Positions 6,335 to 59,925 of a stretch of DNA of 64,000 nucleotides are shown one piece after another. The notes beneath the pieces were generated by a model, which saw only the letters and a list, made by a program, of their open reading frames with translations, did no database searches and had not been told where the DNA came from. Source of the stretch: Anodontia alba. Taxonomy: Eukaryota > Mollusca > Bivalvia > Lucinida > Lucinidae. The translations under genes and the position numbers were made by a program. Position 1 is the first letter of the stretch, and each line of letters starts with the position of its first letter. The stretch is taken from assembly GCA_964016985.1 (NCBI GenBank), contig OZ024828.1:30581129-30645128 (forward strand), read 5' to 3'.

Positions 6335-6409
6335 AAACATATGTTTTGGATATTTGTTAGAATCGCCTCACTGAGGCGATTCTAACAAACATCCAACACA
6401 TATGTTTTG
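6335..6409. repeat. Shared hairpin core, TTAGAATCGCCTCA variant
   Basis: A near-perfect hairpin (arms ~36 bp, ACATATGTTTTGGATATTTG then TTAGAATCGCC) with the same plan as the centre of element A, but with neither element A ends nor pogo-like ends around it. The flanks are CAAGA and GAAAAAAATAAG, like the usual core borders. Confidence 0.75.
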
Positions 6410-6738
6410 TGAAAAAAATAAGAATAAAACCAGGCACCTCTCACATATCAGTTTGCTCATTAAGGAGTTTAACAATAGAAAATTCATTTTAATGGCACTA
6501 ACGAGATGATGTTGTAATGCGGGCATGTAAGCAGTTACGATGTTCGAATTTTTAGGGTGAATATCGTAAAAATTGCCATCATGCAGGCTTCGTTGAGTAA
6601 AAGAAGTGTGTTTGAGCCGGTGCGACCGGTCACATTTCTTTCTTTTTATTCTAAGCGCTAAGGGAAAGGCAGCTACACACTATAGTACCAGTTTCAGGAA
6701 ATCTTATGTAAGACACCGGCTGGGGATCGATCACATAA

Positions 6739-6991
6739 GACCCGGCCCCGAGGTTATAAAACAATTTTCATGCACAACTCAGCTGAACATGAAATTTTCT
6801 CTGCTAATCAATATGAAAATGCCAACAATAGTTGGCATTTTCATATTTATTAGCAGAGAAATTTTCATGCTCAGCTATGTTCAGCATGAAAAAATTTGCA
6901 ATTGTTAGTAATTTGAGATTTATTAGCATGGCGAATTTCATGCTCTGCTGACTTGAGCATGAAAAAAGTTTTATAACCTCAGGGCCAGGTC
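6739..6991. mobile_element. GACCYGGCCCYGAGGTTATAAAAC foldback MITE
   Basis: Inverted ends of about 24 bp beginning GACCCGGCCCCGAGGTTATA, matching the complement of the far end with two changes. The inside is a nested palindrome around GCCAACAATAGTTGGC, with repeated TTCATGCTCAGC words. No open frame of interest. Confidence 0.8.
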
Positions 6992-7026
6992 TAATAGTGC
7001 AAGCTCCATGAAATGAACCGATCGGT

Positions 7027-7052
7027 AAAAAAAAAAAAAAAAAAAAAAAAAC
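7027..7052 (+). repeat. Poly-A tract
   Basis: Uninterrupted A run followed by GA-rich sequence; it might be the tail of an old retroposon, but no body is recognised. Confidence 0.7.
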
Positions 7053-7171
7053 AGAAAAAAAGATAATGAGAGAGAGCGAGAAGAGATAGCGAGATAGTGA
7101 AAGAAGAGAAAGTAGGTAGCGAAAGACCAGACAGAGTAGGTATGTGTAAGAGGCAGGTATGCATGCAGGCA

Positions 7172-7411
7172 AGATAGATAGATAGATAGATAGATAGATA
7201 GATAGATAGATAGATAGATAGATAGATAGATAGATAGATAGGTAGGTAGGTAGGTAGGTAGGTAGGTAGGTAGGTAGGTAGGTAGGTAGGTAGGTAGGTA
7301 GGTAGGTAGATAGATAGATAGATAGATAGATAGATAGATAGATAGATAGATAGATAGGTAGGTAGGTAGGTAGGTAGGTAGGTAGGTAGGTAGATAGATA
7401 GATAGATAGAT
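7172..7411 (+). repeat. (GATA)n/(GGTA)n tetranucleotide array
   Basis: Alternating blocks of GATA and GGTA units: GATA, GGTA, GATA, GGTA, GATA. It begins at the predicted donor of the candidate exon at 7414-7679 (reading on the - strand). The Tyr/Leu-rich frames across it are repeat artefacts. Confidence 0.95.
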
Positions 7412-7413
7412 AC

Positions 7414-7679
7414 CGTTTCAGAATATTCAGGTCCCTTCCATCTTGTAAAGGAATCCAAGTTTCCACCAAGGACCTTTGAACCTCTGCTTTTGCTTACAAC
7501 TTTACCGAATGCGAGGACAGTTTCTGTTACTGATGGTAGCAGTTCAATACTGACTCCAGTCGAAGAGGCCGCGAATGTGGCCGTTAAAATCAACTCGCAT
7601 TTCTTTCCGATTCCAATGGTCTCCGGCTCTCTATCGCCACGTTCTAATGACAGTCTTGTCTGCGCGGGCGTGCCTGTTG
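7414..7679 (-). CDS. Candidate internal exon, repetitive extracellular protein
   Basis: This 266 bp open stretch begins after an acceptor-like AAGCTCATACAG and ends ACG|GTATCT, 88 codons in one frame. The peptide includes TRLSLERGDREPETIGIGKK, then ILTATFAASSTGVSIELLPS. It has even amino-acid use and reads like one repeat of the large secreted beta-rich proteins of molluscs, though I cannot name the family. No partner exon was found in the window. The donor runs straight into a GATA-type microsatellite. It could be a real exon of a gene mostly outside the window, or a relic. Confidence 0.4.
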
Positions 7680-56740: not shown

Positions 56741-56876
56741 TTTATTTAGCCTCAGAGAAAACACTGTCTTTGGAGTTACAACCAGGTATGAAATAGATCA
56801 GACTGCGCAGCTTCAGAGAAAAACTAGAGTCTTGAAAAACTGGATATGTTATACCATCTAAGCAGTGAACAGGAAA

Positions 56877-56938
56877 TGAAGGCGCTGATCAGACTATGCA
56901 GATGCAACAGGCTGATCTGCGCCTTTGATGTTCGCAAA
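56877..56938. repeat. Family E hairpin
   Basis: GAAGGCGCTGATCAGACTAT against CAGGCTGATCTGCGCCTTTG; arms imperfect. Confidence 0.65.
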
Positions 56939-58960
56939 GGTATAAAACAGGTTTTCTTATGGACAGGCTCTGTTTATTTTTATTGCCCCCAGGGGTCGGC
57001 AAAAGGGGCACATGCTCCCCCCACACCCCGCCCCCACTCCCGGCATTGCAGAATAATGAATGATTTTTTTTTTTTTTTTTTGGCGTTCGGTGGTTGTGTG
57101 TGTGGGGGGGGGGGCATGGAATTTGTCATCCCCCTTACCCCTACCCCATCCAATCCATATATATTTGTGTGGGTGTGGTGGCTGAAGGGACAGGAGGTTA
57201 TCTCCAGGATTCTGCATGGCTAGCACTGGTAATCAAACCAGCCGGAATTATTTTTGCAGCTTAGAAATTACCTGCATATAAGGCGGAAGGCAGTCAACAC
57301 TATTTAGCTTATTTTTGAGCCAGTCAATTTACAAAACCGCTCTTCCTTGGCAGGCTTATACATAAGTAGTTAACCAGTATAGCACACATCCTTTTGCCAG
57401 AAACTGACAACTGCCCTTCTTGAATTAAGTGGGAGGGAGAGCATGGTCCCACAAAAGAATGTTGCCACAGCAGTTTTCGAACCCGCGACTTCCTGAAATT
57501 GTCAGAAAAAAAAGTCAGCCTGCAAGATTAATGAAAATGACTTGAAAATAGCATGGAAATGCACTCTCAGGCAATCCAGTTTTAAAAATTTCCCGGGGAG
57601 GCCCCCGGACCCCGTTATAAGAGGAGAAACCCCTCTCATACTCTCCCCCTCTCGCGGCTTACGCCGCTCGATACATGCCTTCGGCAGTCAATGCCCCCCC
57701 ACCCACCCCGTCTTCAGACCTTCTGGGTCCAGCCCTGACAGTCTAAAGTATAAGCATACAAAAATGATAAACAAACTTTGTGTTTAAGACTCATGGTGGT
57801 GGGGGAATATCTACTGGTGACTTTGATATAGATTTGTATGCTAAAATCTGAAAACCCACTCCATTCATATACTTGGACTTTGAAAAAAAAAAAACTATTC
57901 ATATACTTAAAAAGTTCAAAACATAAATATTTTGTCTTGTACATCTATACTCGGACCTAATAATGTATATTGGGTCCAAGGACTATACAAGATACCTGTG
58001 CATATATTGTATATAAAGTCAGTGAAGTGGAACCAACAGGTATATATGTGATACGCTAAATGACTCCAGTTAAGTAATTATATGTATTTTTATGCTTTAA
58101 TTACGCGTACTGTGACACAAATAACCTAGGATCTTAATTATCAATATTGTCTTGTAGATCTTATGAGATTCCAAAACTTATTAATTTGTGTAAAAATGGC
58201 AACGCTATACTGACGTTTACCTCGATAACAAACTCACCTGCAGCACCTGATTACAAACCGGAGCACTGAACATAAATGATAGGGTGTAAAAAAAAATTGA
58301 TGCGTTTCCACTAACATGCTGAAAAAATTGGTCAGTAGGTAGGAGAAACTTGCTTTTTTTTTTTCTTTTTCTATTTTTTTCTCTAGAACAGAACAGGGTC
58401 AGATTTGTAATTTTATGAAAATGCAGGTATTTTGTTAAGGGTCGGTGCTTTACTTTTTCATTTTGCATTTTTACTAATAGAGAATAGTGGAGTCGGGTGT
58501 TTGAAACAGGGTCGGACGGGTTAGTGGAAATACAGCTATTTTTTTACGCCTAATAAGAACTGTTAAAGGGTAATTTAAAGGTTTGGAGCGAATTATACGT
58601 TTCTGTGGAAAACGTAAATTTTTAAATCATTTAAGTCCCAAACATAGCTGCATATCTTCTATGCATGGACGTTTACTTGCATGAAAACAAAAATCGAAAT
58701 CTTGATCATTTTTTTCTTTTTTCTTTTTGCTAAAAATGTTACACTCCCTCCTAAATAAATCGAATACGGCTTCAATAAAACAAACATTTAAAATATGGTT
58801 ACTTCCGTTTCTTAATAGAACCATGTTTCTTTAAAATATCAGATATAATGGGATGGGAAAATCATGGAAGCTGGGAAAACCCGCTAAAGATAAGTAGATT
58901 GCCTATGTTACCGTCAAAGGTCGTTTACGTCTTCTGTATACAACGCCAGCCAAAAAGCGC
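56939..58960. other. Non-coding stretch within the fucosyltransferase intron
   Basis: No exon seen. The stretch 56985-57140 has C-rich and G-rich words (GGGGTCGGCAAAAGGGGCAC, also in part at 56224-56250), with a T run at 57064-57080. CAGTTTTCGAACCCGCGACTTCC near 57470 resembles the reverse of a tRNA B box and may mark a SINE. A second GC-rich stretch is at 57590-57730. Confidence 0.4.
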
Positions 58961-59239
58961 CATTACGAAAACACGCCTATGCAAATATGTAGAAAATTTC
59001 ATCTCCAAAAACTGAAATTTTTCAGATAAAAACCTCTGGTATTTTTCATATTTCTGCTCAAAACATAGATTGTAGGTACTCGTTAGAACCGCCTCGGCAG
59101 GGCGGTTCTAACGAGTATCCACAATCTATGTTTTTGAGCAGAAATAAGAAAAATAATGTATACCCCTGTAAACCCCAGTTTTACTATATAAAAGTGGGGT
59201 TTAAGGGGGTCACAATTATATAGGCATGTTTTTGTGATG
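58961..59239 (+). mobile_element. Element A, copy 16
   Basis: Full length. The core tip reads CCTCGGCAGGGCGG; the arms are otherwise matched. It is followed 34 bp later by another copy in the same direction. Confidence 0.9.
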
Positions 59240-59273
59240 TTTTTTGAAATATGTCGACAACAGAGTAGTTGAT

Positions 59274-59544
59274 CATAACGAAAACACGCCTATTCAAATA
59301 CATTGAAAATTTTACAACCATAAAAGGAAATTTTTCTGATGAAAAATTCTGGTATTTTTCATATATCTGCTCAAAACAAAGATTGTGGGTACTCGCAAGT
59401 ACTGCCTCAGCGAGGCAGCTCTAATAAGTACTCACAATCTATGTTTTAGCAAAACAAGAAAAATAATGTATACCCCTGTAAACCCCAGTTTTACTAAGCT
59501 GGGGTTTAACGGGGTCAAAATTATATGGGCGTGTTTTCGTGATG
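59274..59544 (+). mobile_element. Element A, copy 17
   Basis: Ends CATAACGAAAACACGCC and GTTTTCGTGATG. The core has drifted (CTCGCAAGTACTGCCTCAGC / GCAGCTCTAATAAGTACTC). The loop of the right-half stem has lost TATATAAAAG. Confidence 0.85.
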
Positions 59545-59646
59545 TGTTGCGCAATTTTGGACAAAGGGGACAACTTTTGTCACTGGGCGTAGTTTTCATT
59601 GGGAAACAAACGTACTGTTGAGTGTGGACTGTAGGCTGATGTACCG

Positions 59647-59925
59647 TACATCAGGGCTGTTGAAATATCATGCACGACTTGTCCACTTTGTCTTATCTCC
59701 CTGAGGACAAGTAAGAAATTTCAATTTACATATTCTAGGACAAGAATTTCATAGCTCTAGCTAAAAAGAGTATCTGGATTATGAGATATATATTTTTCTT
59801 ATTCATCGAAGAAAACATATGTTGTGGGTACTCATTAGAAGCGCCTCGGCGAGGCGCTTCTAATGAGTACGCACAATATAACTTTTCTTCGATAGATAAG
59901 AAAAATATCAATTTTCAGGCAAGTT
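59647..59925. mobile_element. CAGGGCTGTTGAAAT-type element with shared core, G:C form
   Basis: The left end CAGGGCTGTTGAAATATCAT is of hAT style. GACAAGTAAGAAATTTCAAT follows. The core at 59812-59890 (CTCATTAGAAGCGCCTCGGC / CGAGGCGCTTCTAATGAG) is perfect with G:C at the variable position, bordered by TTATTCATCGAAGAAAACAT and its mirror. No inverted right end was found before the anchor exon. Confidence 0.6.

Follow-up and report, generated by a model that had tools for sequence, protein, structure and literature searches.

The stretch of DNA analysed here, which we refer to as the window, comprises 64,000 nucleotides of the lucinid bivalve Anodontia alba (contig OZ024828.1, C8:30581129-30645128, GC content 36%), from an assembly of 1,862,613,979 bases in 317 contigs. 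A perfect hairpin of 55 bases, with the layout TTGTGGGTACTC-RTTAGAANCGCCTCG-N-mirror, recurs in the window, where it forms the middle of a number of small transposons that are very common and whose ends are unrelated to one another. The shared segment extends beyond the hairpin by about 30 bp on either side, and each half was modelled as an arm profile of 56 bp (about 30 bp of flank and about 26 bp of hairpin). Our comparison set consisted of the window and 29 ten-kb stretches, taken at round positions on large contigs of the same assembly; it amounts to 354 kb, of which 290 kb lie outside the window. The arm profile identified 53 arms in the window and 266 in the whole set, against none in the reversed sequence. 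These divide into the families A (133 arms), S (46), pogo1 (11), pogo2 (8), U (7) and W (5), with 56 arms unassigned; U and W were assigned by hand, and the tree, identity and mirror counts given below cover the 210 assigned arms.

The most frequent family is element A, of about 278 bp, with terminal inverted repeats (TIRs) CATYACGAAAACA and two different arms, P and Q, each with its own predicted hairpin. Full copies are located on the forward strand at 10910..11190, 13189..13469, 19223..19500, 20607..20885 (with a 55-bp core without mismatch to the search consensus) and 33603..33880, and on the reverse strand at 2223..2499, 3320..3594, 24068..24346, 39142..39437, 44160..44439, 58961..59239 and 59274..59544. 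Altered forms are also present. The forward-strand copy at 5035..5316 (start of arm P to end of arm Q) carries an extra half hairpin in its core, so that three half-cores stand in a row (5136-5221), whereas an A-related element at 18811..19092, to which no strand is assigned, has three half-cores with an arm Q on each side, and is apparently the product of a rearranged palindrome. A half hairpin is found in the copy at 52144..52387 (reverse strand), only arm P and a half core in the fragment at 55966..56094 (forward strand), and a hairpin collapsed to a short remnant at 34557..34795 (reverse strand).

Element S is a palindromic miniature inverted-repeat transposable element (MITE) of about 193 bp with TIR CATAGCTCCAGATAAG. 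Both A and S are short, present in high copy number and bounded by TIRs, as is characteristic of MITEs. A complete S element (TIR CATAGCT.CAGAT.AG, core 31003-31057) lies at 30925..31118 on the reverse strand; the initial annotation had listed an isolated hairpin at 30968, which is in fact part of this element. Likewise, its isolated copy at 6335 belongs to a pogo2-type element of about 300 bp at 6189..6497 (no strand assigned; arms 6189-6289 and 6438-6497, core 6344-6398). In a sampled stretch elsewhere (L017:5550-6882) the units of a tandem array resemble S arms with a degenerate core, suggesting an S-like element turned satellite.

The names pogo-like and hAT-like follow what we take to be the affinity of the end sequences. 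Elements of the pogo1 type have CAGTCGAACCTC ends adjoining TA and are found at 12610..12970 (forward strand, TA at both ends, core 12769-12823), 15721..15993 (reverse, intact left end, core 15860-15914), 44516..44826 (reverse, core 44663-44717) and 54689..55048 (forward, core 54847-54901); one further copy, at 47620..47915 on the reverse strand, has lost the hairpin and kept most of both hairpin flanks. Genome-wide, pogo1-type ends occur 24,859 times at up to 2 mismatches, compared to 0 in the control. The ends of pogo2 are CAGTGAACCCTC-like, and full copies of pogo1 and pogo2 inspected by eye show a TA target duplication next to a CAGT-type TIR. MITEs of the pogo/Tigger type have CAGT...GAACCTC-like ends adjoining TA. 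To judge from their sequence, pogo1 and pogo2 share such ends and would be set apart by the foreign palindrome in their middle.

Two further carriers are represented on the forward strand. A fragment of a hAT-like AATCGATTA carrier is located at 8136..8547, with an S-type core at 8452-8511, and a second copy at 41258..41725 has an S-type core, partly deleted, from 41552. The CAGGGCTGTTGAAAT element fragment at 59652..59906 has its S-type core at 59822-59876. Family U, with core ATTTGAATTGC, occurs in the sampled stretches L019, L023 and L028. Family W has CAGAGGACTTGTTAA ends, a core 0.96 identical to the S1 arm and, by eye, a 5-bp target duplication ACATT at L025:2606-2720; it may simply be divergent S, as the core tree places its arms among those of S. 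Pairwise local alignment of 77-bp outer arms across families (one A copy, three pogo1 and one to two of each other type) gave scores near those of shuffles, the largest z being 3.5, for an A left arm against the right arm of the 6344 element. Together with the 266 arms, this bears out the central claim of the initial annotation, that one hairpin core is common to element families with unrelated ends.

The recurrence of the core is ruled out as a product of chance by its excess over expected, shuffled and reversed counts. Matches to TTGTGGGTACTC (up to 2 mismatches) number 45 against 3.45 expected, those to RTTAGAANCGCCTCG (up to 3) 50 against 4.33, and those to ATTTCTNCNCNAAAACAT (up to 3) 35 against 6.74. 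A 27-bp half-core query gave 48 matches in the window at up to 9 substitutions, compared to a single match when the sequence was reversed and to 1, 0 and 0 matches in three shuffles. In the first 200 kb outside the window, at up to 8 substitutions, it gave 130 matches compared to 1 in the reversed control; this density is close to that inside, and the core is therefore not local to the window. A local cluster is also ruled out by the core arms across the sampled stretches elsewhere.

Profile matches to A and S cover 22,293 of the 290,000 bases outside the window (7.7%). By best profile these divide into 61 A and 59 S, partial copies counted, where the S figure is not a count of S elements because the S profile also picks up pogo-like, U, W and unassigned cores. 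The arms outside the window comprise 42 of S, 53 of A arm P and 47 of A arm Q. Extrapolated to the genome, this would correspond to a few hundred thousand copies of A and on the order of a hundred thousand of S. In number alone, the figure for A is close to the 389,027 'rolling-circle' copies listed in the available text of the hard clam (Mercenaria mercenaria) genome paper (PMC8905726). Rfam gave no match to the core at gathering score, and the exact core was not found in viral or general genome contig collections, from which records near the genome of the window may be left out. Searched as exact strings in paper texts, it matched only a study on plant primers and one on crayfish, as judged by their titles.

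When the core tree is built with the outer sequence excluded, the six family labels change 12 times, compared to at least 65 in 100 shuffles. Taken one against the rest, pogo1, pogo2 and U change once each and thus form single clades, whereas A and W change 5 times each and S 11 times. The nearest neighbour of an arm, with its own copy excluded, belongs to the same family in 197 of 210 cases over the 56-bp arm and in 189 of 210 by the hairpin alone; the 13 arms whose neighbour over 56 bp is of another family all belong to S or W. None of the 159 arms of A, pogo1, pogo2 and U has a foreign nearest core over 56 bp, and 4 (2 A and 2 U) have one over 26 bp. A scattered S together with single clades of pogo1, pogo2 and U is the pattern expected of a source pool and carriers derived from it. 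It points to old, roughly single acquisitions of the core, with S as the surviving pool.

A direct trace of S in other carriers comes from profiles of the arms S1 and S2, built from other copies and compared with shuffles of 17 targets (two profiles, uncorrected). The S1 profile scores above all 300 shuffles on the right arm of the hAT-like element at 8452 and on the left arm of the element at 59822, and 1 of 297 shuffles reaches its score on the right arm at 41552. On the opposite arms the S2 profile is weaker, with 3 of 298 (8452), 16 of 280 (59822) and 10 of 300 (41552) shuffles at or above. Both carriers that the initial annotation had described as element types at 8140 and 59647 thus contain S arms. 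The two pogo1 arms each have an S-like TIR (4 edits in 16), located at the S2 distance on the left and at the S1 distance on the right, results that random genomic 68-mers match in 0.63% and 0.57% of cases (16 comparisons). Element A is found inside a pogo1-type element at two places (L015:4809-5086 and L009 near 9960), which shows that members of these families can lie nested within one another. When up to 5 edits were allowed in the S TIR, 108 of 232 arms were marked, compared to 15 in the reversed control. Many of the marked arms clearly belong to A, and our conclusions do not draw on this search.

We favour, at roughly even odds, the reading that S or its ancestor inserted long ago into other elements and was then amplified together with them. 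Copies of S, or of its ancestor, would insert into other DNA transposons; this is supported for the two hAT-like carrier types and likely for pogo1, and for pogo2 and U it is what we infer. Some of the composites would then have been amplified as units by the transposase of the carrier, each carrier family thereby inheriting one core. Element A, with the same 56-bp arms, may be one more such composite, or else a sister element of S in which the ends were replaced. Once inserted, copies would decay mostly through one-armed mutation. Most likely, source copies re-make the hairpin, by template switching or arm-to-arm conversion at a cruciform, or amplification continues only from copies whose hairpin is intact, or both. 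The order of these events, the transposases involved and the mechanism of renewal are inferred from patterns that are observed as such: the sharing and abundance of the core, its congruence with the carriers, the S arms in hAT-like carriers and the mirrored changes at family level.

The last of these become visible when changes are followed in both arms. The family hairpin consensus sequences of A, pogo1, pogo2 and U differ from S1 at 16 positions, 13 of which are mirrored in both arms, whereas the 77 two-armed copies show 242 differences from their own arm consensus, with 20 mirrored and 222 not. It follows that decay of inserted copies mostly affects one arm at a time, whereas in the source lineages the hairpin stays perfect or becomes so again. 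In each of the five families tested, the consensus sequences of the two arms match at 24 to 26 of the 26 hairpin positions; over the adjacent 30 bp the agreement is 0.97 in A, 0.93 in S, 0.80 in U and 0.60 in pogo1 and pogo2. Among 44 A copies, mirrored changes show no excess (19, compared to a permuted mean of 16.5 and maximum of 27). Template switching can renew hairpins without selection, as described in the accessible text of one study (PMC8794818); renewal by this route and selection among source copies would both fit our data, which can be accommodated equally by either. Shortened spacing occurs in 4 of 51 A arm pairs, which measure under 90 bp instead of about 100. The A copy at 34557-34795 and the pogo1 copy at 47620-47915, which have lost the hairpin and retained most of the flanks, look like deletions in the palindrome and not like ancestral empty carriers.

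Several results weigh against an insertion of S followed by co-amplification and renewal. Direct repeats of 5 to 7 bp (for example CTATA, CTACTT and TTTTAAG) flank some of the 11 complete copies of S and speak for its insertion, as do 6-bp flank matches with at most 1 mismatch, which number 3 compared to a permuted mean of 0.36 and maximum of 2 in 200 permutations (the most favourable of 45 combinations of length and offset); the target duplication of S, however, varies in length. For element A no target duplication above permuted pairs was detected in 48 full copies, and the direct flank similarity in 52 full copies shows no excess (3.58, compared to 3.37 +- 0.14 in permuted pairs, with a maximum of 3.73); insertion of the S type alone does not explain this. 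Unanchored S profiles do not exceed shuffles on the arms of pogo1, pogo2 and U or on arm P of A, and are no more than suggestive on arm Q of A, with 5 of 300 (S1) and 27 of 300 (S2) shuffles at or above. The anchored search for the S TIR gave null results on A, pogo2 and U. No carrier without S was found; a pattern for an empty pogo1 had 0 exact matches genome-wide, a zero that is uninterpretable without a control for the occupied pattern. With regard to renewal, the contrast between family and copy level has a Fisher p of 1e-10 that is overstated, as family differences are not independent, and only 3 to 6 arms on each side underlie the consensus sequences of pogo1, pogo2 and U. Two further counts do not sit easily with inserted copies that only decay. 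Distinct mirrored sites in A number 12 (shuffled mean 6.5, maximum 13), and in a mixed set of 16 copies that are neither A nor pogo the 27 mirrored changes exceed all 500 shuffles (mean 13.7, maximum 25), a count inflated by the pooling of S with other families.

By eye, S ends had also been read into A and pogo2; the profile and anchored tests gave no support to this. The corresponding reading by eye for pogo1 was upheld by the anchored search alone and not by the unanchored profiles.

As an alternative to insertion and co-amplification of S, the families could represent one old MITE lineage with fast-changing ends, the ends of which were exchanged or drifted apart as the lineage came under different transposases, with the centre preserved and no nesting involved. 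The arm consensus sequences of A and S are 85-88% identical over 56 bp, coral families with different TIRs and a conserved centre provide a parallel, and W, with an S-like core, CAGAGGACTTGTTAA ends and a 5-bp target site duplication (TSD) seen by eye, looks as if S ends had turned over. We nevertheless regard a single lineage as possible at best, and distinctly less probable than nested S: the hAT-like carriers contain S arms, the outer arms across families align little better than shuffles in the few copies compared, and the TA-adjoining pogo-like ends, the hAT-like ends and the TSD-less ends of A imply different transposases, as far as labels based on end sequences can indicate.

The hairpin could also be a selected cis-acting module that brings the ends together, forms a cruciform at replication or binds a host factor, and thereby favours amplification across superfamilies. 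Palindromy in pogo1 and pogo2 is sharply confined to the 55-bp hairpin, mirrored changes are far commoner at the family than at the copy level, the A and S matches make up 7.7% of the 290 kb, and A copies with a shortened hairpin are few. However, template switching, to the extent described in the same source (PMC8794818), renews hairpins without selection, and shortened copies could be rare simply because the deletions are recent; we consider a selected module unlikely. The same low standing applies to its boldest form, in which the 55-bp hairpin would be a portable amplification module, a perfect cruciform gained by unrelated transposase systems and required for, or strongly favouring, their multiplication, with only renewed palindromes becoming sources.

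As single-stranded DNA the A consensus is predicted to adopt a closed three-armed fold (-98.4 kcal/mol, compared to -22.6 +- 3.2 for shuffles), S nearly one long hairpin, and one copy each of pogo1 and pogo2 also have stable predicted folds (z about -12). As part of the same unlikely module reading, the cloverleaf of A, closed by its TIRs, and the absence of a detectable target duplication suggest that transposition of A may use a single-stranded folded form. Helitrons and the related HINE elements make no target duplication and insert at a fixed dinucleotide such as T|T. Element A agrees with the first feature (48 and 52 copies) and departs from the second, with T at the left -1 position in 16 of 52 copies and at the right +1 position in 15 of 52. 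Spy elements insert between AAA and TTT without a TSD. Element A likewise lacks a TSD, but has A at the left -1 position in only 21 of 52 copies and T at the right +1 position in 15 of 52. Its flanks have no fixed target base in 52 copies, except that G is scarce at -1 (1 of 52). The TTAA target site of piggyBac elements was not seen in the flanks of S, A and pogo copies, for A on the basis of base counts. Two A copies in the sampled stretch L002 (2509-2787 and 5421-5699), about 2.9 kb apart, closely resemble each other and share their flanks, apparently through local duplication.

A hairpin that moves alone between carriers, as the initial annotation had proposed, or is exchanged among them by gene conversion, up to the present would account for the same core within elements of unrelated ends, but is very improbable: agreement of core and carrier labels makes recent exchange unlikely, with 12 label changes against at least 65 and no foreign nearest 56-bp core in 159 arms of A, pogo1, pogo2 and U (the 56 unassigned arms stand outside this test). 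What survives of a hairpin shared out between carriers is the presence of S arms in two hAT-like types and, more weakly, in pogo1; free movement does not survive, and the full agreement of core and carrier trees that had been named beforehand as the outcome speaking against it was nearly attained.

Elements of comparable architecture have been described. Among the CMITEs of Acropora corals, several families differ in their TIRs but have in common a conserved internal region, the variation of which tracks the family with one exception, and one family arose when a CMITE inserted into another sequence, according to the available portion of the report (PMC2872659). The same portion describes them as piggyBac-like, about 100 bp long, with TTAA target sites and about 1,600 copies in A. 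millepora (PMC2872659). The clam elements resemble them in the conserved internal region under different TIRs, in family-correlated variation and in the proposed nested assembly, and the statement of the initial annotation that no such element had been described was therefore too strong. In contrast to CMITEs, the centre of the clam elements is a perfect palindrome, their ends are from different groups (TA-flanked, hAT-like and TSD-less) and matches to the A and S profiles cover more than 7% of the sample; the coral precedent, close as it is, stays within one superfamily as far as its accessible description goes. In another bivalve, Lucina pectinata, the text available on the haemoglobin genes describes a MITE-like repeat of 210 bp with imperfect 30-bp inverted ends, a 77-bp self-complementary centre and no TSD found (PMC4732748), which we liken to the clam elements by its described architecture and not by sequence.

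CORE-SINEs have a central domain common to families with unrelated heads and tails. They differ in being retroelements, whereas the clam elements have inverted ends. Our literature search, which had most subscription journals outside its scope, found no account of this shared core in bivalves. The case goes beyond the ordinary in that elements with different types of ends have the core in common and that the hairpin is renewed in source lineages; nested S with co-amplification explains the shared core in part. Apparently separate DNA transposon families, together several percent of the sampled genome, share a self-renewing hairpin centre, which offers a natural test of whether internal sequences, beyond the terminal repeats, decide which MITEs multiply. 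Moreover, the contrast between mirrored changes at family level and mostly one-armed changes at copy level separates source elements from dead copies, and can be measured in any genome that has such elements.

Other features of the window include tandem arrays at 31575-32931, 27839-28508 and 60774-61693, whose units measure about 155, 275 and 100 to 190 bp, respectively, and in which the arm profile has no match. Two open reading frames, at 50060-51268 and 35728-36348, resemble by eye a fucosyltransferase and a reverse transcriptase fragment, respectively.

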